From the NCBI RefSeq assembly GCF_000711695.1, contig NW_013546953.1, positions 34,618 through 98,617 of the forward strand: a stretch of 64,000 nt of DNA. Direction: 5' to 3'. The stretch is from Tilletiaria anomala UBC 951 (taxonomy: Eukaryota; Basidiomycota; Exobasidiomycetes; Georgefischeriales; Tilletiariaceae). Positions 48,191-64,000 of the stretch are shown here, one piece after another (position 1 is the first letter of the stretch; each line of letters begins with the position of its first letter). The position numbers and the translations under genes are program-made. The notes beneath the pieces are model-generated. The model ran no database searches. It saw only the letters and a program-made list of their open reading frames with translations, and was not told the origin of the DNA.

Positions 48191-48919
48191 GCCGACGGCT
48201 TCCGCGTGGGCGTGGTGCTCGGTAGTGGAATCTCGGGCGTGCAGCCGGCAAGGAAAGGCGCGATGGCACTTTGCTTATTAGAAGAATCCAACCGATTGTT
48301 TGTGGCCACTGGTGATGGAATTGGCGTCCTTTGTACCTCGTGATGAGGTGATATGGTTGGTACCTATGGAGGGTAGAAGCTCCGCCAACGGCGATTAGAC
48401 GCCGATGCAGCCCCTGGCGTTGTTGATGAGAGTTGTGACAGCCAAGACTCAAGTGGCAGCTGAGAGACTTTAGACCTTGTGAAGAGACAACAAGCTGTCG
48501 GACGACCAGTACTGGCTTGGACTTTATACACCAACGAAAGTCAACCAGAGGAGGTGGCATAGATCCCTGTGGTAAGATGCTGAGATGATCCGATAGGTCA
48601 GTGTTAGTAGAGAGAGAGACCTGTTCTCGCAGGCTTTGTTTGTCTGCTCTGATGGTAACAGCACTTGACGCGTCTCTCTCGAAAAGTTGCCGACAAGCCG
48701 ATGCGTATCTCCAACGAGACAGTCATCAAAGAAACACCTTTTGTTCTTCAATTCTCAAGTTAAGGTACAACGGATGCCCTTGGCGGTTTCGACCCTGTGT
48801 TTTGCACCTTTCTTTCATCCTTGAAAGATTCGAGAAGTCCTGTTCGGATCGGTTGCTTCTGAATTGAGAGATTTGGACGGACGCAACGAGTTCATCGCCC
48901 AAACAAGGATCCGCAAACA
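48191..48919. promoter_or_regulatory. Divergent promoter, CDH1 / HEI10-like gene
   Basis: 729 bp between divergent starts. On the minus strand a coding-like stretch runs from about 48310 to 48180 in a frame different from CDH1 exon 1 and may be a missed 5' exon. A GAGAGAGAGA run lies near 48607. Confidence 0.45.
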
Positions 48920-50818
48920 ATGGAAGACGTTTTGCACTGCAACCGGCTCGAGTGTCGCAAGAACTTGGGCTCAGAGGGTATTGACGCTTCAAAAAGCTAT
49001 CAAAGCAGCATATGATCGCCGTACTGACACTTCAAAGATCTGCTCTGCGCACTGAATGGTCTACATATAGGTCAAGCTGTGGTCACAACCTGCTCGCGTA
49101 AGGACGGCGCCGCACTGGACCTAGCTTGTATTTATCGGCCCTGACTGGCTTGCTTGCAGACATCTTTTGCCGTAAGACCAGGCGTGGCCATGTGCATTCT
49201 CCACAGCACGACGCACCATGCCCATTCCTGAACTATGGTAATCCCTGACCTTTGCGTCCCCTGCTGCTAAAGTCACCTGCGCCAACAAGTACTTCACCGA
49301 AACCAGATCCTGCCCGGCTTGTGAGGCCTCTCTCGATCAGCCCGACGATGTCGTCGTCTCTTTTCTCAACCCCAGCGCCGATTATAGGACGGTGCGCGGC
49401 TCAGACCTTTCTTAGAATCAGCGCGCCACTCTGAGACCCAAAACTGCCCGTATTGGTGCCATGTCATGACTGAAAAGCTGACTGTATGCGCCCAATTTGC
49501 AGTCCGTACTCGCAGGGTTGGCCCCAGGAATCGTCATGGAAATCGCTAGCCGTAGCTTGAGCTTCTGGCAGTATCAATGCAGCCAAGAAGTGCCTTTAGA
49601 CATTCTTCAATCGAGCCGCGCCACGGCCTGTTGACGCTTCTCCATGCTCCAACCCAATCTCTGTCCCTTCTCTCGTTTCCCCTGTCAATACCTTCTGACC
49701 GTTCTCAACAGGCGATGTTTCAACGCTTGGTCCTTAAGAATGCTCAAGAGAGGGCTACGACTCTTGAGGCCCAACTGCGCACGACGATCAGCGAAGGTGT
49801 GTGCAGTCAGACATCGCCAAAATCGGCTTCAGCCAGGTATTTGTGGGGGGAGGGGGTCTGAATGCAAGTTATCTCCTTCTTACAGCCAACAACCAACTCG
49901 CTGTGTTGCAGACGAAAGTCAATGGTACGTCCGTACCGGATGCGCCCATTATATACGCATGCTTGACTTAGAGCACGCCCCGCCTGGTGCTTCTCAGACC
50001 TGACACAGGAGGTCAAAGGGGAGAAGAGAGTGTCATACGAACTGAGGGAGAAGCTTCGCTCCGCGAGCAAAGACTATGAACGCTTGAAAGTATGTGGCTA
50101 ATCGGCAGACTTACTGTATGCTGGTGACCGAAGGCTCAACTTGTGCTCTTAGGCTCAGCTCGATCGTAACATGCGCCAGTCTCTCATTCCCGGCCGTACA
50201 CCGGGTGCTATGCTCTCTGAAGCAGCTGCTAATGTCATTCAGCAACCAAAACCCGTGCACGCAACCCCTGCTCGCTTCTATCCTTCTCAAACGCAAATGG
50301 CCCGCAATCGCACATCACCGGTCGCTCAAGGCGGAGGCGGAAGCACTGCCAATTCTGGAGCCGCTAATGGCTCGACGGTTGGAGGCCTTGCACATGCACC
50401 GGCGAGCATCTGGCAAGCGCAAGCTCAAGCTCAGACGTTCTCTGCCGACGGCATTCATTTTGCGGGACCGAACACGTTTACGAGAAGCAACAGTTGTCGC
50501 AGGAGCACCCCTCGCTCGGCATCTGGCGATCATCACGCAGGCGCAGGAGATGTTATCATGCACGGACGCTTCGACAATCGCAGGACTGCTGTTCCGGTCA
50601 AAGTGAGCTGTGGCGAGTTTCTGCGGAAGATGAGTGCCCTGATATAACATGCGACGTTTCTACAGCGCACGCCCTCGCGCACACCATCTCGCAACACTTC
50701 CCACTCCAACTCCGACGTGCTTCAAAGTTCGCGTGCAAGCAATGGTCCTCTGGTCACGCCCAAGACCACGAGGACAACCAAGCCGAGCCTAAATGAATTC
50801 TTCCATTTGGACCGTTGA
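48920..50818 (+). CDS. HEI10/CCNB1IP1-type RING protein (meiotic crossover factor)
   Basis: Ten exons: 48920-48977, 49071-49097, 49160-49171, 49273-49391, 49503-49589, 49712-49796, 49886-49924, 49998-50089, 50153-50602 and 50666-50818; 373 residues. The RING begins CNRLECR and continues VVTTCSHIFC, then CANKYF and SCPACE. Exon 3 is only 12 nt and finishes the HIFC core. The next stretch, PDDVVVSFLNPSADYRT then LAGLAPGIVMEIASRSLSFW, is diagnostic for HEI10/CCNB1IP1. A coiled coil of about 100 residues follows (exons 6-8), then a Ser/Thr/Pro/Arg-rich tail. Homologues are SUMO or ubiquitin ligases that mark crossover sites on the synaptonemal complex. All nine introns keep frame. It ends 41 bp from the stop of the converging metallopeptidase gene. 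Confidence 0.88.
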
Positions 50819-50859
50819 ACGTGTCATCAGTTCAACTTCAGCAGTGTAGCGGAATATTG

Positions 50860-53800
50860 CTAAGCAGAACACTCAGAGCCAGAGGTACCAGTGTAGCTAC
50901 CGCTGCCCTCTTCGCTGCCGTCGTCGCCAAGGTCTAGGTCCTGCGTCTCCATCTCGTAGCCAACCGCAGTGAGCGCATCTGCAATCTCCTGGGTCCGACT
51001 CGGGGTGCTCGCAATGGCGCAGATCGAAGTGTCCGGATCGAAAATTGGCAACACATACTTCTTGAGCGCCTCGCGCACTGCGGGCAATGTGACACTCTGT
51101 AAATGGGGAAAAGCCAAACATGATCAATATTTGAAATCATGCTAGAGGGCCATCAAACATTTACGCACGCCAGTCTCTTCAAGAAGCCGTTTGCCTCTGT
51201 TCTTGCCAGTACCCTTCATGACCGAATCGATGAAGCTTTCTGAAGCGGCCGCTCCGACGGTCCCTTCGCTATCAGCAACGCTGAAGTGCAAGCTCGACTT
51301 CGCGCTCTCGACTGTGGTCTCGTCAAGCTTCATCTCGCCGCTCGCCAAGGCCTGAATGACCTTGCGCGCCTCTAGAAAAGCTTTGGCAGAATCCGGCGAA
51401 CGATATAGCGAAAAGCTGATCAGCTGCGATTCGGGGTCGCTGCTGATGGATGCTCCGTAAGCCCTATTTGCAGATACGTAATATGTCAGTCAAAAGTCGG
51501 AACTCAGAGCCTTAACAGGTCACTCACAAGCCTGCGCCGCGGATGAACCGCCAGAGGTAGGATTCCATAGCATTGAGCACAGCAACCGCAACTACTACCG
51601 CCGCATTGTCCGGGTGTTGGTAGTCCTCAATACCGCGGGCGGTAAAGTAGGCGTAGGAGCTCTCGATCGTAGGAAGCGAGCAGACCAGACCCTGTGTGAC
51701 GAAAACACCAAAGATCCTGTTAGTGTTATAGGAGGGCACAACTTGGAAGGCAAGGCGCTCACCTTTTTAAAGGGCATCTTGCCGATAGGCGTCAGCACGT
51801 TTCGCGCCCACTGCACTGGAAGAGTGTCTTGTGGCTGCCAACCTGTGACGAAGTTCTTCCTGAAGCTGTCACGTGGAGCCTTGAGAGATAGGACGTCGCC
51901 CGCAACGGAGACGCGCATGTTCTCCGGGCGGAAGATCGTAGATCGTATCTGCTCAAACATGGCAACCACCTTATCTGGCTCGTCTGCCAGCAGCTGCGTG
52001 ACCTCCGGAAGCGAACGAGATTGCTCAATGACAGTGTTAGCCGCACTGGATGAGCGCGACACATCTCGCGTCAGCTGCCTCAGCAAGGCGGCCGAGATGC
52101 TACGGCCGTCACGTTTCTGCTCTGGCAGTGATTGAATGAGCTTCGCCGCTGCGACCCGCAGCCGCTCAACGGCAAATTCGCCGCCCCATACCAAGTCGCG
52201 GAGCCAGGCGATCGCATTTTCGTAGTTCTCCTTTGGAACCTTCAGGTCGATGCAGATGTTCTCCGAAAAGCCATAGCCGACGCCGAGCGACGCCTCGTAC
52301 TCGAGCGTGTCCTCGTCGAGTAACTTGATCACCTCCTCATACGAAAGCTTCTGCCCACTGCCGTCCTGTTTTGTGACGGGGAGGAGGAAGAGAGTCGAGA
52401 GGAAAAGAGTAATGTGTGGTCGCAGCTCCGCGGACAGGTTTGCGGTCGAAAAAATGAGGCTGACGGTCAAGAACGCTGAGGTCACGTCTATCTCGAAGGG
52501 ATAAAATGCGGGTCAACTGCGTCTCCTCCTGAGGTTTCTACCGAATACCCACGATCGAATTGCACAAAGAAGGGCAAAGAAGCACCGTCAGCATCGACAT
52601 GCGCCTGTACCTTTCTATCCAGTTCGGAAATATTTGCGCTTGGAGGCATTGGAGACTTGGCTGTCGGCAGGTTTCTCGCAGTTCCCACTGAAATCCACTG
52701 GATGCTGTCTACGCCTGGGATCTTGAAGCGGCTGAGCATGTCGGACGGAAATTCCTTATCGTTCTCCTTCTTCGCAAGTTCAAGCTTCTCTTCGAGTTTC
52801 TGGAGGCCAGCTTCGCCAAGCTCCTTCTTGCGCGACTCAACCAGTTCTTTCGTGTCTGCACGCAGCTTGTCCGCTAGTAGTGCCGATGGTCGGCCGATGA
52901 CAACCAGACGCGCGCCGTCGACGAAATACCGTGTGAGCACATCTACCCATTGCTCCGATGTCCACGTGTCTAAGATATCGAAACGTCGCATGTCGTCCAT
53001 GGCCTTGTCTAGGTCGGATCCGTCACGCTTCCCGTAGAGAAAGTCGGCCTGGCCGTAGACATCAAGCGAGATTAGTCGAGCCTGCAATGGCAAGACCGTG
53101 AAGAGGAACATGGCTTGAAGCACTCACAATGAGGACATCGGCAAAAGAGTCCGCAGGCTTGGTCTCCAGATGGCTAAGCAGCTTTAATCGATCTCGCTTG
53201 ATTACCGTCTTCATACGATCCATGTCGATCCCTTTCTCCGCAACCTTGTTAAGAAGCACAACCAGTTCTCCATCGAGCGTGTCTAAGCGCTCCATCGGCA
53301 CGCTGGAGAAGTACGCATAGAGCGTGGTGACGCCCGCCTTGTCTGCGCTGCCGAACGACACGTCCGTGCAGTAGGGGTCGTCGCGCTCGACAAAGGCATG
53401 CTGGACGGGTGATACAGCGTTCTCGGTCAGGTAGGTGCTCAACACACTGATTGCCTCGTTCTGGAGCCACTCGTCGATCGTGGGACCGAGCCAGGTGATC
53501 TCTACCTCGCCCATGCTCTCGTCCTTTTCGGGAAACTCGACGACAGCCGTGCGCCGGTCTCTGCGGTTGGGTCTTGCATCTGCTTGTACATTCTCTTCGC
53601 CTGCCGCTTTCCCTGGGATTGCCTCGATGGTGGGCGGTACGGCTGAAGAAGTCTCGAGAAAAGGGCGCTTCCAGCCGGGCGGTCCACGCACGCCAAAAGC
53701 GAGATGCTTACCCACGAGCTTCTGCTCGACGGGTGCAACGGCGTCGAGCAGCGCTTGGCGATCCAAGGGCCCACAGATGACGAGGGCAGCGTTATGAGGC

Positions 53801-54713
53801 GCATAATACGTCTGGTGGTACTGTCGGATCTCTTCGATGGACAGCACGCGCAGGGCTGACATGAGCCCGCCCGTCTCGCTCCGGTACGCCGAGCTGGGCG
53901 GGTAGAGCAGGCGCTGCGTCTTGAGCTCCATCAGGTCGCCGCTTGTGTTCTCACGGCCCTGCATCTCCGAGAAGACGACGCCTGCATCCTCGCCTTTGCC
54001 GTTGATGTGGTACACCTCGGTCACGAAGCCAGCGTCGGTCAGCGTGGGGAAAAAGACATGGTCGAGGTAGACGGGAAGCATGCGTAGGAACCCATCGGAG
54101 CCAGCCGTTGTCAACGTGTAGCCTGAGGTGCATGATTTGAGTTCAGCTGGTTGACTTGTGGACAGTTGGATACTCTTTCATCATGACTTACAAGTCTCAG
54201 TCCCTGATGTCCAAGCATTTGTCCCTTGCGCAAAAGCTCGATTCGCCAGGCTGTCGAGTACGCCTTTGTAGGGATATTGTTCACTACCGAGAAATACCAA
54301 GTGTTCAAGCGTGTGTGGGACCTTTGGAAAATAACACATGGTGTCAGTGTTGGAAGTTTGTACCGCTGAAAATCTCCCCGCCTTTACTCACACCACTGTC
54401 ATTAAAGATCTCGGACGCCACTGTGATATAGCTGTTGAGCAGTGGACCTATTTCACAAATGTGAAGTGAGACGGTTGGGATGAGCATTTTTTCCATTGCG
54501 CTGAAAGTAGTCGATCTCGAAAGATCCATTACACCTACTTTCAAAATTGGCCCAAATGACGGTTAAGCCGGTGACCCGCGAGACCCACTTCTCAACGCTC
54601 ATGTTTGGTGCATAGTCTAGCATCACTCTCCTGATGAGATCGAAGTTGCCTTGCGTCTCAGCGGCACTTGGCCCATCTTGAGCAGCATTCTGCTGCACTT
54701 GTGCTTGTGTCAT
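50860..54713 (-). CDS. M16C zinc metallopeptidase (Sdd3/Mug138-like)
   Basis: Nine exons: 54713-54539, 54447-54392, 54321-54192, 54122-53128, 53081-52553, 52487-51763, 51691-51528, 51463-51169 and 51096-50860; 1101 residues. The inverted zinc motif HxxEH reads HTLEH in exon 3, followed by LVFLGSEQYPYKGVLD and NAWT, the insulinase-family signature. Upstream NFDLIRRVMLDYAP and VTGLTVIW are typical of this clade. The second half is the usual inactive repeat. Homologues include yeast YOL098C and fission yeast mug138; substrates are unknown. The C terminus is acidic and Ser/Gly-rich. The chosen ATG at 54713 precedes the conserved start. An in-frame ATG at 54914 would add 67 residues and might encode a targeting sequence. 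Confidence 0.9.
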
Positions 54714-56777
54714 GCCCGCTTCTTCCGTGGCGAATGTACAGAGTTTCTGTGAACGCAAGCTGCGTATTCGCATGTGAGAAGGCGAAGAGAAGAATACCGA
54801 AGGCCGTTTACCAGCAACCGCAGCCTTGGTGTGCGTGTGACGGGTGACAAACGTGTACGAGGGTGGCTTCCTGCAGATGGTCAAACGAAGGGATGTCGAC
54901 AAGAAGGTCGGCATGTACCACGAGGGTCGTGCTTGGCTTAGGTTCGCTGGTTCACTGCGTCCGATGGTACTTCTCCGGTTTTAACACTTTTCAAGTGCGA
55001 AACCACCCAACAGCCTATCAGTGCCCAATCGTCTTGAGTCGTTCTATGATATACGTTTCCCCCGATTAGAATAACAGCATGGAGAAGCACGCCTTGGTTT
55101 GGCTACGCTCCCACACGGTCTGATGTGAGAAGAGATGGTGATGCTGACACCGATGACTGCGACGTGTGACTCCGATACATAGGGCAAGTCTGGATACTCT
55201 CAGAAATTTTAGGGTTCCCTTTAAAGTGCAGAGAGTTAAGCATTTTGCGGGAACCCTACCTCAAGCCTGGATCACATGATCCCGTGATCGTTCAGATTCC
55301 TGGAACAACATTGGGAAACCGACCTTGCATCAGTCCCCAATCCCGATCGTTGAGATCATTCATAGCCCATGTTGGGCCGCCGATGTACCCTAAACTCGCA
55401 CCTGGAATTCCCGGCTCGCCGCACGAAGCTTGCAATGTAAGGCGCGCCGCCGAAGAGTTGACAAGAGCAAGCTGCAAAGTCCTGAGATGTCCATTTCTCC
55501 AGGGTCCAGGGTCCAGGGTTCAAATGCAGAACACCACAACAAAAGAAGACAGTGCCAAAAGCGAGGGAGCAGATGAGGGAACAGGGCTATGTGAAGAAAC
55601 TGGGAATGACTGGGATCTCGCAGCCCTGGAGCCTCAAGCAACCTATTGGAGGCAGGATGATGAGTACCGAGTAGGGATGAGCAAGTGGCTTTGGGGGAGG
55701 GAAAGCTAGATCAGCCTGGCTCTGGGCATGAGGGCTGGGGGGGAAGACAGCAGGCAGCAAAGCAAGGTCTTTTTGGTCCCAGGTGGAATGCATGCGGCTT
55801 GTGCAGTGCCGCTTCATAGTCACTCCGACTGGGTGCGCATAGGCCATGCCCCACTCTTCCCGAAGGTCTGGGTCTCAGTCCAGACGCTAGGCTCGAGTGG
55901 GTAGGGAGGGCAATTAGACAGTGTGGCCCGGGCATACCCAACCATGCCGGCACTGCGCCACTTTGCATTATGCGTGATCTTTAACAGTCTGAAGCAGGGT
56001 GTCACCGTGGTCGCATGACGCCAGTCTCCTTTCGCCCCCCCTTTTGGGACTTCGGGAATCTGGGCATCAGACAGAGATAGTCGGCCTTAGTGCACTGGTG
56101 CCTGTGCAGCTTCCCATTGGTTGTTATGACAGGTTACACCTGCTCCAGAAATGTCTCACGTCTGGTTCGTTTTGGTTATGTCATCCGCTTTGCGACATCG
56201 AACGGGTTTCCTGCCGGTAATAGCATCGCAGCATCCATCTTCCAGCGGTAAGACAATCATGTGGCAGGGCGAGACGGGCAGCGCCTGGCGAGAGCGAACG
56301 AGCTACCGAGAGTCTGCGCAAGAGTTGATGCGTGAAGAGAAGCTGTCGGAGCGGTGCAAGCCTATTCGTTGCCTATCCCCCCAGCTGGCTGGCCATCCCG
56401 GAAACCGACTCATCTCCTAGCTCTTTTCAACATTGAACACTTCCTCCAGTAGGAGAAAGGGTTATGCTGCCATCTAATCTTTAGGCGCGTCATATCAATG
56501 CATTATCGTCGAGTACATGCAGAAGAACTCTTACCTTTGATCACGTCAGTGTCATTGGGTCTGGCTATCGACTGCACATCCTACGAGTGTCTGGTGGGCT
56601 CCGTCCGGCATCGGAACTCGCGGTTGACTCGACACAACTTTCCAGGCGATCAGCGCCTCCCCGCGGTAGGCTGTAGCACGACACGCAGAGTCGCTCGCTC
56701 CTATGGTCTGCAACGTCCCACCCCTCTTGGTCAGCCTTGACAGAGTCGGGCTTACGACAAGCGGAGTGCACGAAAAG
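54714..56777. other. Divergent intergenic region, about 2 kb
   Basis: Contains promoters of the metallopeptidase and of the Zn2Cys6 regulator. Short frames only. A small CCAGGGT tandem run lies near 55500-55517. Such long upstream regions are common for fungal regulators. Confidence 0.5.
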
Positions 56778-59700
56778 ATGGCGCCCAAGAACACGAGCTC
56801 GACCGATTACCCTGCGTTCCAGCTCGCCTCGACAGCCGAGGCGACCAAGTCACATTCAGACCACGCCTTACGTCTTCAGCGTCTCCTGCGGCCCAACCCC
56901 GACGTCAACCAGCCAGGCAAGCGACCCTGTGACCGATGCCGCTCGTTCAAGGTCAAATGCAGTCGCACTGTACCTTGTACACGCTGCACCAAGGCAAAGC
57001 AACCCTGCACGCATGACATCCCCGTCATGAAGGCGGGCCGCATCACGCTTCAAGAGATGGCCGCGTTCAGCCACATGGGCATCCCTTATGTCACATTCCG
57101 GCAGCGCCTCCGCGTCAACAGTGCTAAGGCGAAGGGTGTCGAGGGGGAGAGCGGTGGTGGGTCGCTGGCGAGCGCGCAGGCGGGCGCCTCCTTCAGCTCC
57201 GAAAGACATCGGGTTGGTCGCAGCAGTAGCGTCTCCAGTAGTTGCAGCGCAAGCAGTTCGCACACGTACGCTAGCAGAGGAGAAACAGCAGCAGGCCTTG
57301 TAGTAGCCGACGGTGACACCGAAGCAGGTCCTGGGACCAGCGCTGCAACAGCGCTGAGGCGAGCTGCACTGGTGGCTGCGGCATCCTCCTCCTATTCGGC
57401 TCTTTCGGACTGTAGCTTCGATTCCGAGATGTCCAGCACTTCATCCGTCCTCTCAGCAGCCAGCACGACGATTGCAAAGGCAGCCTGCATGGGGACACAG
57501 CCCAATACCGCAAACCCCGGTTTCACCCGCCTCCATTTTGCTGGCGCTAGCAGCCCGTCCAAGCACCCGAATGCTGCACTCGGTAGCGGTAGTCAGCACC
57601 CTTCCCACCATTTAGCACCTCATGCAGGCGACCACCAGGCATTGGCGGCGATACATGCCATCACACCCGGCCCTGTGCCCGGAGCAGGCGGGGATGACAA
57701 CTCACCCTCGACGGCCTCCGAGCCATTGATCGAGACGCCAAGTAAGAGCGTCCCCGATGATCCGCTCTCTTGGCTTGATGACTTGCACCTCGTTCCATCT
57801 TCTGGCCACAAGCACTTCTCGCACAGGTCACCACCGCAGCACGCCTCTGTGGCCGGGAACAGTTGGGCAGGACCTTCATCAGCAATCAAGGACAAACCCC
57901 TTCAAGCGCAGCACGCACACTCTTCCTCTCGCGATCCAGCGCTCGGTCCGAGCAGCGGCGTTGGTGGCGTCAGCAGCGCGGAAGCGCATGCGTACCCCTG
58001 GACACTCAATTACCGCGTGCCGGTCCTGGAGCGCAGCACGCAGGACGTCGCGCACCCGCTCGCACTGGCCGTCCCGCCGCTCTTCCGGCGCTACCCGTCG
58101 AAGGCGGATGGCTTGCGTGCGCTGCACCACATGCATGAGCAGCAGGGCAGCGCAGTCGGACATCTGGTCGATCCGGAGCCTTTGCGCCCGGCTATCACAC
58201 GCCGTTCGCTTTCAAATCCAAGCCTCTCGAGGTGGGAGATAGCGTGCTGAGGATGAACCCTCGCAAAACGCATGTTTTACTCTTGGATCATCTTGGGTGC
58301 GTAGCAGGCTTGGTGCCCTTGTAAGCTGGCTATATGCTGACTCTTTGCCTTGATGACGTTGCAATTCAGTCTCATCCAGGCCGTCTCGATCGCAGAGTGC
58401 AGCCTTGATTTCAGGACGTTGTTTAACCAGCGGTGGCATACGCTCGGGCCCGGTGGCATAGCCCTCAGTCCTCCCTGGGAGACCTTGAGTCGGGAGAACG
58501 AGACGAGCTACACCATCTGGCCCGAAGTCTCGCTGCAGACTATACTTGCTGCGATGCAGCAGGCACCGGTGTGGGAGGCGATGACGGCGGCAACGGCAGT
58601 GCATCAGCCCGGAGGCCGTATGGCCAAGCAAGACGGGCCATCAAGTGCAGTAAATGGCGGCGTGGGCAGCAAAAGCAATGAGCCGAAAAGGCGACGGAGC
58701 AGTGCTACTTCTGGCGTCTCCGCGAGCGATGTATACGCTCAGGCCAGACTAGAGTGGCACGTGGACTCTTGCAAACAAGCACAGCGCTTGCTCTCCAACC
58801 CCGCCGCTGCTCACCTAATCGAGATCGAGTATTGCGAGAAGAGTCAGTTCGCTTTTTTCCAGGGTTCGATCATTAACACGTACCTTCAAGACGCTGTCGC
58901 AGGCTACCAGCAGCAGACGATTGCTGAGAGAGAGATGCGTGACACACCCGCAGAGAACCCCGTTCCCCGCAGCGGTAAGCGGCCCACATTAAGCGCCAAC
59001 TCGGCCGGGCAGCTGCTGGCACGAGCAGAGACGCGCCATCGGCTGGCACTGCTACTTAGTCTGCTCGTTGCATGCGCACAGTACATCGGACCACTGGAGC
59101 TGCAAGTCGACTCGGTGTGTACGTCCCTCTCGACGTGGGAGTTTGCGTTTACGGCAATGAAGCTGGCCTGGCGCCTACTGCAACCCCGTTCGCCGGATGG
59201 GATCTACAGAGTGGAGGAAGTCAGCCTTGAGGTCCTCGTCGCGCTTACCCATCTCGTCGATGCGATCAGGACGCACCCACAGCATACGGACATGAGCCAT
59301 GTTGTAAAGCGTCTCATCGCACATCCTGCGACATATGATAAGATCATGTCCGACACCGAAGGCCATCCCCAGCGTCGAGAAACATGGAAGCGACTACTAG
59401 GGTGAGCATATGGGCCTGTTGCCGTGTGTATGTGTGCAAAACAAGAGTGTGGTAGCTAACATCTTATTTGCGCGCTATGGGCAGGTTTCACTTGCGTGAG
59501 GTCGTTGCTTACCGACTCTGGCAGCGAAGGCAATTGGGCCTGCGATTCGGCCCCATGCTGCGTCCACTGGGCAATTTGGTCACGCTCCCTGGTGAACTGG
59601 TGGACGAGAATTTAGGAGGGGGGCTTTTCCGGCAGCGCGCACGCTATGAGATCGCAGCGATTGAGCTCGACCTGCTCAACGAAGAGCTACTTGACTCGTC

Positions 59701-60359
59701 CTTGTTGGAGCCGTTGCCGGGTCCGGAGCATGTCGAGGCTCGAAGGAGGCTGGCGATGCGGAGAGAACACGATGGGCAGATGTTCTACGAGCGCTTACTG
59801 CTCTTGCAACAACAGACCTTATGTGTCGATGCCGACATTCCGCCCATGCCGCCTGGAGGCTACAGCACGGCGTACTTAGACCCGCTCTTTTATCAGCGGC
59901 ACTGCTCCGAGAAAGCACTTTCGGCGTTTGCGCTGACATTGGATCTGATCGTCGCTGCTTTGAAGGTGGGTTTTGCCCGCAGAATGGTGAAGAATGCAGC
60001 GAAGTACGAGCAAGCTGTGCTGACATTCGATGTTGCTTGGGCTCGTTGCACTTGTGCGTCACAGGAGATCGACGCCGAAGGCCTGAGTCAGACTTTGGAG
60101 GACCATCTCTGCGGCATGCCCCCCAGCATTGATCTGAAAATTTCCCGCACGGGCGAGTGAGTAAAAGGAGGCATCTCCCACCACAGAGCCGGTGTTAGTA
60201 TCTGACGGACACAGATGGCTGACCTTTGAACTTGCTGCCGTTGTCAGATGGCTCATGACGTCCGCCACCCATGTGGAGACGAACCGATATGGAGCCAACA
60301 GACGCCAGAACCGTAGGAAGGCCCCTAGTCCAGCCGCCATGGCCATGGTAACACATTGA
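56778..60359 (+). CDS. Zn2Cys6 fungal transcription factor
   Basis: Four exons: 56778-58231, 58370-59401, 59485-60156 and 60248-60359, giving 1089 residues. The DNA-binding cluster has cysteines at 51, 54, 61, 67, 70 and 77, spacing C-X2-C-X6-C-X5-C-X2-C-X6-C, as in Gal4-type regulators. A Ser/Ala/Gly-rich linker of several hundred residues follows. Exons 2 and 3 hold a mostly helical region (LIQAVSIAECSLDFRTLFNQ onward) that would be the effector or middle-homology region. Exon 3 can also be read to a TGA at 60158-60160, but a GTGAGT donor there and a TTGTCAG acceptor extend the frame 37 codons, so the last exon is likely. The target pathway is unknown. The nearest downstream gene is the secreted repeat protein 3.4 kb away. 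Confidence 0.88.
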
Positions 60360-61864
60360 GCCCAGTGCCACGCTTGCTTTTATTTAGCTCGTGTGCAAGT
60401 CGGCACCTTCCTCGTTTCCATCTCCTCTTGCGACAGGCTTTCCATTGCTTAATCTTTGTACTTGGTGCCGTTGCCTTGCACTCGTGTTGTATCAATCACA
60501 GTCAATCTGGAAAATTCGGCCCGAAAGCCTTGCGCCGCGCCTTTTTGAGTTCTGACTTCATCTTTGACCTAGTGCCGACAATATAAACTCACGTGCGTCG
60601 ATTCATCCGCCCAAGCTTGCCACACGTGCATGAGCGCTGGAGATCTAAGGCCTGAGAGAAGAACACATGACGAAGGCAAGCAGATTTTTGATGCTCGTGC
60701 CCCTGTTCCAACTGGAGTTAGGACTTCTTCGGGCTCCAAAAAAGCGTGTACCGTGCTGAAGCCTCAAATGCAGCGCTGGTACTCGGGATAGCTCGCGGCA
60801 AGTGAGCTTGTAAACCCAGTTTCTTGCAGAAGAGTGAGCTCGATAATGTGTGAATGTATCTAAAAGGGAGCAGGCAGTTAATCCCCATGTGCGGCACGGT
60901 CTAAAGTACCCATCATTCCGCACTCTCCACGAGATGACGCCCGCACAGCTAGGGGTATCTAGCGGCCAGGCAGGTCGATCTTGGCTCTGAGACCCCTCGC
61001 TTTTCGAGCAGAGGGGAAGAAACTCAAGCCAAAAATGCCACGAAGCCCATCATTGCCCAATGCCATTGATGATGGATGCCAAGTGGTCGACTCGCTACGA
61101 TGGAAAAGGGACATGTGATTCGACCATTCGACGATTCGAGGCTCTGCTCTGCTCTACGCGGCTGAACATGCCACCCCCCTCCCAAATCTTCGACCGAGGT
61201 ACGCAAAGCAGCAGGGCATCCCTTCAACGATTCGATAAGTGAGGCTAGGCGTGTACGTTGCACAGGTGCAAGTGTATTTCCAAGTGTCACGACGACGGAA
61301 AGCAGCGGTGGCCGCGGGGCTTGGCGTTTGGCCCAATCTCCGGGGGCAAGGATACGATTCATTTCGAAGGGTAAACTCGACACTTTGGTCTAGAAGAGAG
61401 TGAGAGCACTGTGAATGCGATCTCTGTGAGTCGGGTCTAGGCCTTATACAACAAGCAGTCTTGGCCCACATTGATCTTCTTCGCGTATGCAGACGCTTCA
61501 CCGCGTCTGCTACATGGAGCGAGGGCACACGAAGGTCCCTCTGCAGGAACAGCGAGGGTTCTAAGGAATTACCGAAATCTCTCTCTGCCCACGGAGGCTC
61601 CGAAACACCAGCGTGTCACGGAAATTTGTCGCCCCCTGGCAATCTCGGGACATGAGGCGTTTTTTGCCCAGTGCCAACGGCGCTAGCGATCCCAAAGCTG
61701 CCAAATGTTCATACTCTTGTCTCAGCTTAATCAAGAGCACCGACGCTGACCCCTGCAACAATCACGGCAAGGGGCTGGAAAGAAAGAAAGAAAGATAGTC
61801 AACACCAGCGCCACGAGCGCGGCTCACTTCCTCGGCGGCGGCGAGCGAGAGCCGAACATTTGAT
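60360..61864. other. Gene-poor region, left part
   Basis: About 1.5 kb with no credible frame on either strand after the Zn2Cys6 gene. Confidence 0.5.
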
Positions 61865-61971
61865 GCGGCCATATGATGGGAGCAGCGAGCAACGCCTGCG
61901 GCCATATGATGGGAGCAGCGAGCAACGCCTGCGGCCATATGATGGGAGCAGCGAGCAACGCCTGCGGCCAT
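61865..61971. repeat. 33-bp tandem repeat, three full copies
   Basis: Copies start at 61865, 61898 and 61931, with a partial fourth (8 nt) at 61964. The three full copies are identical by eye. Each contains CCATATGATGGGAGC. Because 33 is a multiple of three, frames on both strands read through as 11-residue repeats, for example MAAGVARCSHH on the minus strand, but no surrounding gene supports translation. Confidence 0.9.
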
Positions 61972-63740
61972 TGTTTGCATTCGGAATACGTAGCCACTGC
62001 TCATGCATCCGCGAGCTTTGGGGCAGCAGAGTCGCCCGGCCCACTGAAAGGCAGCCCGAGAGCCCAGCTGACCCGAAAGGACAGGCCGTACATTTCGACT
62101 GCGATCTTTTAACAGGTCCCTCACAAGCACTCCACCCACCCTCTCGCAAACTGACTCTGCGTGAGCACAGCGACCATACAGGAGGGATCTATAGCTGGAG
62201 CCGGGAGTGTGGCCCGCAACGAAAAGATCATTGGGAGAGGATTGGGCGCCTTGCTTGCTCGTCGTGCACGAATGATAGCTGTGGCGCTCTATGCAGCACT
62301 GAACATCGTCCGTAAGGCCAGCAGGGCGCACCTCGAATAGGGTGGCCGCCGAGCGAACGGATGGAGCACTTGCGGACTGTGGTCAGCTCCCAGCGCCTAG
62401 TGGCCAGTGTGTTTAAGTGCCACCCCTCCCACCCCGCCTTGAAGGTCGCCAAAGCACCGCATGCGCTTGGCGGGGAAAACAGGCTTCGAACATATTATTT
62501 TCAACACCATTCCGGCTATCCCGGTTATTTTGTTTCACCCAACCCAACTTGGGTTGAAAACTCTCTACATACTGCCTACTGTCTGCTCTCTTCACCTGTG
62601 AATTGTCAAATTTGTAATAACCCGCTGGCGGGGCAAATTCAGCTTTATTCGCCGAAGGGTTGGGTAAATCCAGCATCTGTCAAGCATTCGTTCCTCGAAT
62701 ACTGCGCGTGACGCCAAACGGAAATTTAACCGCGATCGCTGCTTTAGAGACAGGGAGCATGACAGGGCGGGCGCAATTTCGGTACAAGAGATCGAAACGC
62801 AATCGCTGCTTTGGACCCAGGGAACATGACACGGCAGGCGCAAAGTCAATGCAAGAAAATGCTTCAAAGGCATCTTGTATGACGCCAACACAGGAGTATC
62901 AGTGCGGCAGGCGACATACTGAAGGACAATATCAGCGTGCAAGACGCAAGACCGCCGCCTCCATCGGCATCAAGGCTATGCCATCGTTCACGTGGCTCAT
63001 CGGTGCAGGTCGGTGCTCTCGGAATAACTTCTGGGTGGAAACGAATAGTTTGTCCTCAACTTTCCCTTGGCGAAGTAAGTGACATTTGGCTAGCTATTGT
63101 GTCATCCAGACTCGCTGTCAAGAGATAATGGACCTGCGCCTCATCAATCACGACACATCGGACAACTCGCGACGATCGGTGTTTTGACAAATTTTGACCC
63201 ATGCCCACTTCGACTGCTCGTCGTCACCACGTCACAGATTCTCAGTCATTCGTTTCGCTGTCATTAGTCACTAGTCACCGTGACAGAAACCGCGCCGCTC
63301 TGTCATCAGTCAATGATTCAGAGTCCTGGTTCATTTTGCCATGGCTCGTGGAACAATACTGAAGCGAGCAACGCTTTGCTCTGATGCCACCGTTGGGCTT
63401 TACGCCTGTCTGACTGACGGCACGGTCCGTCCAAGAAACCATCCAACACGGTTTCCCTAAGTGCTGCAGCCATGCCCAAGTTTCATCTTTCTCGCTGCTT
63501 TCGCGACAGCCTTGCGCTGTAGCGTCAACGTGCCGAGATACAATTGCGGCATGCGCAGGGTGACCGTAGGGGTCGCACCTGACGCTTAACGAGCCGCAAG
63601 TTTCAGACTTCCGTAGCCGATTGATTGCAACAGGCCGTATAAAACAGGGCATGAGGATTACAAGCTGAATGGTGATGCAACCGCCTCCTCCCTAACCTCC
63701 TCTTTCTCGCGAATAACCCCTCTGACGACTTCCCTCCAAA
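61972..63740. other. Gene-poor region, right part, with promoter of the repeat protein
   Basis: No credible gene. An imperfect direct repeat of about 41 bp occurs at 62735-62775 and 62802-62842. A cluster of GTCA/TGAC motifs occupies 63220-63325. The final 100 bp carries a TATA box and a pyrimidine-rich leader for the secreted repeat gene. Confidence 0.5.
63638..63644 (+). promoter_or_regulatory. TATA box of the secreted repeat protein gene
   Basis: TATAAAA about 97 bp upstream of the ATG at 63741, followed by a C/T-rich stretch at about 63682-63712 that resembles the transcription start region of highly expressed fungal genes. Confidence 0.65.
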
Positions 63741-64000
63741 ATGCGTTTCACACTCTCCTTTGCGCTGGCTTCAGCCGGGCTCCTTTCCACCGCAGGCACT
63801 GCTCTCGCCGCACCGGTCACCCTAGCGTACGTCGGCGCGCCACCCGACCGTCGCTACGTTGGCGCTCCTCCTGACAGCGTTGGAGCAACCTACGTCGGCG
63901 CGCCGCCCGACCGTCGCTACGTTGGCGCTCCTCCTGACAGCGTTGGAGCAACCTACGTCGGCGCGCCACCCGACCGTCGCTACGTTGGCGCTCCTCCTGA
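63741..64000 (+). CDS. Secreted repetitive protein, candidate Kex2-processed peptide precursor (3' truncated by window end)
   Basis: The frame opens with a clear signal peptide (MRFTLSFALASAGLLSTAG..ALA, probable cleavage after Ala23), then APVTLA. From residue 30 it is built of a 21-residue unit encoded by 63 bp, starting at 63828, 63891 and 63954. Each unit consists of YVGAPPDRR plus YVGAPPDSVGAT, so the YVGAPPD core appears twice per unit. Differences between copies are synonymous. Arg-Arg after each first core is a Kex2-type dibasic site. Cleavage would release identical short peptides of 19-21 residues. This architecture matches fungal Kex2-processed repetitive proteins: pheromone-like peptides, repellents such as Rep1, and dikaritin RiPP precursors whose cores also start with Tyr. 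The end and total copy number lie outside the window. Confidence 0.8.
   Translation, partial: MRFTLSFALASAGLLSTAGTALAAPVTLAYVGAPPDRRYVGAPPDSVGATYVGAPPDRRYVGAPPDSVGATYVGAPPDRRYVGAPP

Follow-up and report, generated by a model that had tools for sequence, protein, structure and literature searches.

The window analysed here is a stretch of 64,000 nucleotides from Tilletiaria anomala UBC 951, alias CBS 436.72, the right edge of which is also the end of its contig (98,617 bp, here called C69), so that C69 cannot be extended further in this direction. An open reading frame on the plus strand, 63741..64000, runs into this edge. It starts at an ATG with an A at position -3, and its translation consists of MRFTLSFALASAGLLSTAGTALAAPVTLA followed by a tandem array. 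The features of the locus are the following.

63638..63644, plus strand: TATAAAA, a candidate TATA box, 97 bp upstream of the ATG
63741..64000, plus strand: 5' part of the precursor coding sequence, 86 complete codons, open at the contig end
63741..63809, plus strand: predicted signal peptide, residues 1 to 23 (MRFTLSFALASAGLLSTAGTALA), from hydropathy and a cleavage-site rule applied by eye
63810..63827, plus strand: APVTLA, a short spacer ahead of the first core
63828..63890, plus strand: repeat unit 1, YVGAPPD-RR-YVGAPPD-SVGAT (Tandem Repeats Finder)
63849..63854, plus strand: Arg-Arg, putative Kex2 site 1
63891..63953, plus strand: repeat unit 2, with a CCG variant at 63905 (Tandem Repeats Finder)
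63912..63917, plus strand: Arg-Arg, putative Kex2 site 2
63954..64000, plus strand: repeat unit 3, interrupted by the contig end
63975..63980, plus strand: Arg-Arg, putative Kex2 site 3

By eye, the start of the protein is signal-like, with an arginine at residue 2, a hydrophobic stretch and a cleavage-like site between ALA and AP. The TATAAAA motif was found twice in the window against 1.06 occurrences expected by chance, and is a weak signal by itself. A scan for prokaryotic promoters and terminators, a method that is not applicable to a fungus, gave no match.

The array (63828-64000) has a period of 63 bp with 2.7 copies and 98% matches according to Tandem Repeats Finder, and is still open where the window ends. 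Each 63-bp unit encodes YVGAPPDRRYVGAPPDSVGAT and contains exactly one Arg-Arg. An earlier note on this DNA had described a signal peptide followed by 21-residue repeats with one Tyr-initial core and one dibasic site each; the signal-like start, the repeats and the single Arg-Arg per unit were recovered, but the heptapeptide YVGAPPD occurs twice in each unit, with copy A preceding the Arg-Arg and copy B preceding SVGAT.

DNA and protein searches of the genome located the sequence in only two places, the open reading frame on C69 and the right end of a second contig, C172, on the minus strand. When reverse-complemented, C172 begins inside the array and reads VGATYVGAPPDRRYVGAPPDSVGATYVGAPPGHINQ followed by a stop codon, and over 60 bases (60/60) its start is identical to the end of the window. 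The extension to the right that the earlier note had called for was thus obtained from C172, which supplies the end of the array and the stop codon. The last core, YVGAPPG, is followed by HINQ and the stop, giving the C-terminus GHINQ, and at this end of C172 we found neither a domain after the repeats nor a hydrophobic or GPI-anchor-like C-terminal tail. When the 2 contigs were overlapped, the minimum protein was 103 residues long. Since the 5' end was found on C69 only and the 3' end on C172 only, the simplest reading would be a single gene split by its own repeat, in 2 contigs because the assembly broke inside the 63-bp array. A pair of paralogous genes was considered and set aside as less simple, because a single 5' end and a single 3' end were found in the assembly.

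In the three-unit array obtained by overlapping the contigs, no 80-mer and no 96-mer is repeated, while 64-mers do repeat. An assembler working with K=96, presumably the default of ALLPATHS-LG, should therefore pass through an array of this length, which argues that the true array is longer. The T. anomala genome was assembled with ALLPATHS-LG from Illumina reads, and its paper also reports that RNA was extracted and that gene models had transcript support (PMC4056295). The true copy number is probably above three.

The earlier note had also held that the copies differ at silent positions only, and this was borne out at every variable site. Within the window, the 63-bp copies differ at a single position, the silent CCA/CCG change at 63905. 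Between the A and B cores, 4 of 21 bases are different; all 4 changes are silent and fall on third codon positions, which has a probability of about 0.006 to 0.009 under random change. With the CCA/CCG site added, 5 of 5 variable sites are silent (P about 0.002 to 0.003). The test draws on few sites, and sites shared through gene conversion cannot count as independent, which is why we rate the evidence that the peptide sequence has been kept by selection as moderate. By the same pattern, the core appears to have been doubled before the latest homogenisation of the 63-bp unit.

As a background, we scanned the window and 14 loci of the same genome (130,893 bases, the loci partly overlapping), which gave 2,071 frames running from stop to stop over 40 codons or more, of which 132 were signal-like by a hydropathy rule with a cut-off of 1.6. 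The precursor scores 1.72, and the cut-off had been lowered from 1.8 after the precursor itself failed that value; the stricter scan is empty for this reason. Only 1 of the 132 signal-like frames, the precursor, contained at least 3 dibasic-delimited fragments with a 6-mer in common. Three such fragments were reached by three further frames, none of them with a signal-like start and all antisense: two frames of the precursor array and one of a 33-bp array at 61.9 kb.

In the genome, a kexin with Peptidase_S8 and P_proprotein domains was identified on contig C4 (its closest PDB entry is Kexin 2id4, at E 6.5e-131), S10 carboxypeptidase matches were obtained on 7 contigs, and a DPPIV-type protein is also encoded. 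In the route described for Kex2-processed repeat proteins (KEPs), loss of the signal peptide is accompanied by kexin cleavage after the dibasic sites and by trimming of the basic residues through Kex1 (PMC9769878). By this route, the precursor would enter the secretory pathway, kexin would cleave after each Arg-Arg, and a Kex1-type S10 carboxypeptidase would remove the arginines, so that several identical linear 19-mers, YVGAPPDSVGATYVGAPPD, would be secreted together with an N-terminal 13-mer, APVTLAYVGAPPD, and a C-terminal 23-mer, YVGAPPDSVGATYVGAPPGHINQ. The unmodified 19-mer has a computed monoisotopic mass of 1831.863, and it contains 4 prolines (21%), has a net charge of -2 and a GRAVY value of -0.04, and is neither hydrophobic nor evidently amphipathic. 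Its computed [M+H]+ is 1832.870 and its [M+2H]2+ 916.939; as doubly charged ions, its Arg-tailed 20-mer and 21-mer forms would lie at 994.989 and 1073.040, the N-terminal 13-mer at 635.838 and the C-terminal 23-mer at 1134.058.

The earlier suggestion of a secreted precursor of the Kex2 type therefore holds up, given the signal-like start, the array, the one Arg-Arg per unit and the kexin in the genome, and we regard the Kex2 repeat-precursor reading as well supported by these sequence features. Our preferred interpretation, with a probability of roughly 0.75, is that the locus encodes a stand-alone KEP, a single gene that would release a linear, acidic, proline-rich 19-mer. Under the definition of Umemura, a KEP has at least 3 tandem repeats of at least 8 residues between KR, KK, RK or RR sites (PMC7329392). 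The assembled DNA contains 2 complete RR-to-RR 19-mers plus one partial unit at each end, so that three repeats are reached only if the array is longer than assembled. The definition of Le Marquer asks for at least 4 fragments after in silico cutting at KR or RR (PMC6339444), and the 3 Arg-Arg sites of the minimum gene give 4 fragments. A Kex2 protease in the organism, which is also part of the KEP definition, is represented by the kexin on C4.

The survey by Umemura lists 7,878 KEPs in 1,345 of 1,461 strains, with a mean of 5.30 per basidiomycete strain (PMC7329392). Peptides of 9 to 24 amino acids are the most abundant class in Dikarya except in yeast-like Basidiomycota. Like the surveyed KEPs, the precursor has a predicted signal peptide, tandem repeats and dibasic sites, and its predicted product of 19 residues falls within this class. 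It differs in that no credible homologue was found for it, and would count among the 'stand-alone' KEPs, a category without any homologue to which 2,560 of the 7,878 were assigned in the same survey (PMC7329392).

The search for relatives carrying the core, which the earlier note had proposed, gave no credible match. A search with the minimum precursor against 5.8 billion proteins yielded 2,818 candidates, none of them at E <= 1. An eight-unit version of 208 amino acids, which admits longer relatives, gave one match among the 7,999 best word-sharing candidates, at E 6.6; this is a protein of 248 amino acids with other Pfam domains, which we take to be of the HAD type, and the match was judged to be noise. 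The protein collection covers T. anomala and its relatives, and the search finds only proteins of fitting length that share exact 5-residue words, so that a homologous gene that had been modelled differently could be missed. Within this scope, the precursor appears to have no credible homologue among the 5.8 billion proteins. A search of the PDB with the precursor gave no match at E <= 10, the best Pfam match had an E-value of 0.14 and fell under the cut-off, and no mention of the YVGAPPD string was found in the literature searched. The genus Tilletiaria was likewise missing from the main texts of both KEP surveys (PMC7329392, PMC6339444).

Pfam scans covered 59 frames, 17 of them on C172 and 42 in the window (24 of the 61 frames of at least 180 amino acids plus 18 shorter ones); in the region 48700-64000, they covered 30 of the 43 frames with a length of 100 amino acids or more, three of these being scanned from an internal start. 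The strand of the precursor also encodes a Zn2Cys6-domain protein (frame 56670-58247), whose gene lies 5.5 kb upstream, or 3.6 kb upstream if 58341-59402 and 59456-60157, which have no Pfam hit, are further exons. It is possible that this factor (56670-60157) is a regulator of the precursor. Farther to the left, the window contains matches to an M16 peptidase, a CDC20-type WD40 protein, an FMN oxidoreductase, a mitochondrial carrier and a ubiquitin-conjugating enzyme. The nearest Pfam match on the downstream side is a CCDC174-like gene on C172, 2.4 to 2.6 kb away, followed by a mitochondrial DNA polymerase, a lunapark-type zinc ribbon, a Myb protein and 2 GNATs. The 2 GNAT acetyltransferase frames are adjacent on the same strand (L009 1357-3681), perhaps as the result of a tandem duplication.

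No Pfam match was obtained in the scanned frames over about 3.6 kb upstream (60160-63741) and 2.4 kb downstream (L004 2535-4905) of the precursor. It was noted that such Pfam-free stretches are unusual for a compact genome of 18.4 Mb. The upstream stretch contains a perfect 33-bp tandem array with 3.3 copies (61864-61971), about 1.8 kb from the precursor, which is open in several frames and had no Pfam match in the 2 frames scanned, as well as a 67-bp unit present in 1.9 copies with 79% matches (62731-62856).

Among the alternatives, the protein could be an unprocessed, secreted structural or wall protein in which the Arg-Arg pairs are left uncut or have no meaning. Tandem arrays occur in wall proteins too, and cleavage is predicted here from the sequence. 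This alternative is nevertheless unlikely, in that each unit contains exactly one dibasic site, neither the 5' nor the 3' part has a Pfam domain above the cut-off, and the GHINQ C-terminus lacks a hydrophobic tail of the GPI-anchor type. A long non-repetitive domain downstream, which the earlier note had named as the mark of an ordinary cell-wall protein, was not found on C172, where the stop codon comes four residues after the final YVGAPPG.

A second alternative, also raised in the earlier note, is that the released peptides form surface-active, amyloid-like fibrils on the hyphae in the manner of Rep1. Rep1 of the smut fungus Ustilago maydis is built of repeats and processed by Kex2 (PMC4617103), a type to which the predicted precursor would also belong, and T. 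anomala makes hyphae (PMC4056295). However, the Rep1 peptides are described as amphipathic and 35 to 53 residues long (PMC4617103), whereas the predicted T. anomala peptide is shorter, with 19 residues, acidic, proline-rich and not evidently amphipathic. With its 4 prolines, its charge and its GRAVY value close to zero, we take it to be a poor former of beta-fibrils, and a soluble released peptide, acidic, proline-rich and not hydrophobic, fits these properties better. The repellent reading is weakened accordingly, and we consider it improbable.

The earlier note had placed the gene in a possible RiPP system. In a dikaritin-type system, the cores freed by Kex2 would go on to ring closure at tyrosine, giving a tyrosine ether, through UstY-type oxidases and a tyrosinase. 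The dikaritins include ustiloxin and phomopsin, for both of which a tyrosinase is expected, and asperipin-2a. The layout of the precursor is identical, a tyrosine opens each core, and a Zn2Cys6 regulator gene lies upstream on the same strand (56670-58247). Neither UstYa (DUF3328) nor tyrosinase was matched in any of the 59 frames, with one WD40 frame assessed by its best 25 of 39 families and with short exons that could escape such a scan. The oxidase or tyrosinase genes that the earlier note had thought possible beyond the right edge were not found among the 17 frames of C172, where the genes are instead those for the CCDC174-like, mitochondrial DNA polymerase, lunapark-like, Myb and GNAT proteins. 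Genome-wide searches also gave no match to UstYa or to tyrosinase, although both searches were silent in all 14 control genomes as well, which weakens the absence as evidence and leaves it short of proof. Furthermore, the predicted product differs from the dikaritins in being a 19-mer with two cores. In Basidiomycota, DUF3328 neighbours are reported for 103 of 1,680 KEP genes (PMC7329392), so that the lack of such a neighbour here would be the rule. The RiPP reading is not supported, and we consider it very unlikely.

That the frame arose by chance in a GC-rich minisatellite, or as an artefact of the assembly, is scarcely credible: the array is homogenised and located exactly at a contig end, its antisense frames are open as well and the 33-bp array nearby is a second perfect one, but the signal-like start and the prompt stop share one frame, 5 of 5 variable sites are silent in that frame, it is the sole such frame among the 132 signal-like ones, and C69 and C172 agree over 60 of 60 bases.

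For the KEP that we favour, the least certain part is the role of the peptide. Our guess, by analogy with linear KEP peptides, is that it may act as a released signal or in biotic interactions, rather than as a cyclised toxin or a wall-coating amyloid, because its properties suit soluble release and a role in mating is unlikely. The mating pheromones of basidiomycetes are of the prenylated a-type (PMC9769878), which is why we think a mating role unlikely. The precursor resembles ascomycete alpha-pheromones and the alpha-like KEPs of basidiomycetes in that its predicted products are linear Kex2 peptides of the 9 to 24 residue class. It differs from them in that the residues after each Arg-Arg are YV, the STE13 signature (XA or XP) being missing even though a DPPIV-type gene is present. 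Detection of KEP peptides that are linear and carry minimal modification has been reported for basidiomycetes. In Coprinopsis, six KEP genes were knocked out, and no apparent phenotype is described in axenic culture (PMC9769878).

T. anomala is a dimorphic, homothallic Exobasidiomycete, the sole known strain of which came from decayed wood; it is known only from culture, and environmental sequences suggest an association with plants (PMC4056295). The closest described protein in layout is Rsp1 of U. maydis, a protein of 260 amino acids with putative Kex2 motifs and eleven imperfect repeats, which are hydrophilic and 18 or 21 amino acids long (PMC4617103). Both proteins have short hydrophilic repeats, of 21 amino acids in T. 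anomala, that are parted by Kex2-type sites, whereas the repeats are near-identical in T. anomala and imperfect in Rsp1; the likeness is by description only, and we do not claim homology. U. maydis belongs to the Ustilaginomycotina, the same subphylum. The double knock-out of Hum3 and Rsp1 in U. maydis stops in planta, and the function of Rsp1 is given as unknown in the same source (PMC4617103).

A more speculative idea is that every peptide released by Kex2 is by design a bivalent ligand, with YVGAPPD present twice and joined by SVGAT. Since the 2 halves differ by four silent changes and by no amino acid change, both may be functional epitopes, which may bind to a receptor dimer or link two targets to each other, for instance by way of the two tyrosines. 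We hold this idea to be unlikely. If true, the design would be unlike the single-core KEP peptides usually described, and it could escape surveys of annotated proteins, its array breaking short-read assemblies.

The kind of gene is already known and does not by itself point to new chemistry. What is unusual is an unfamiliar core, with the same heptapeptide twice in each predicted peptide, kept through silent drift. The locus adds one clean and apparently unannotated KEP from an understudied relative of the smuts, and provides exact peptide masses as search targets. Both KEP surveys drew on catalogues of annotated proteins (PMC7329392, PMC6339444), from which a gene can drop out when a short-read assembly breaks off inside its array and leaves it at the end of a contig. 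The precursor thereby illustrates a practical blind spot, in that a KEP gene that has been cut in two at an assembly break can escape such surveys.
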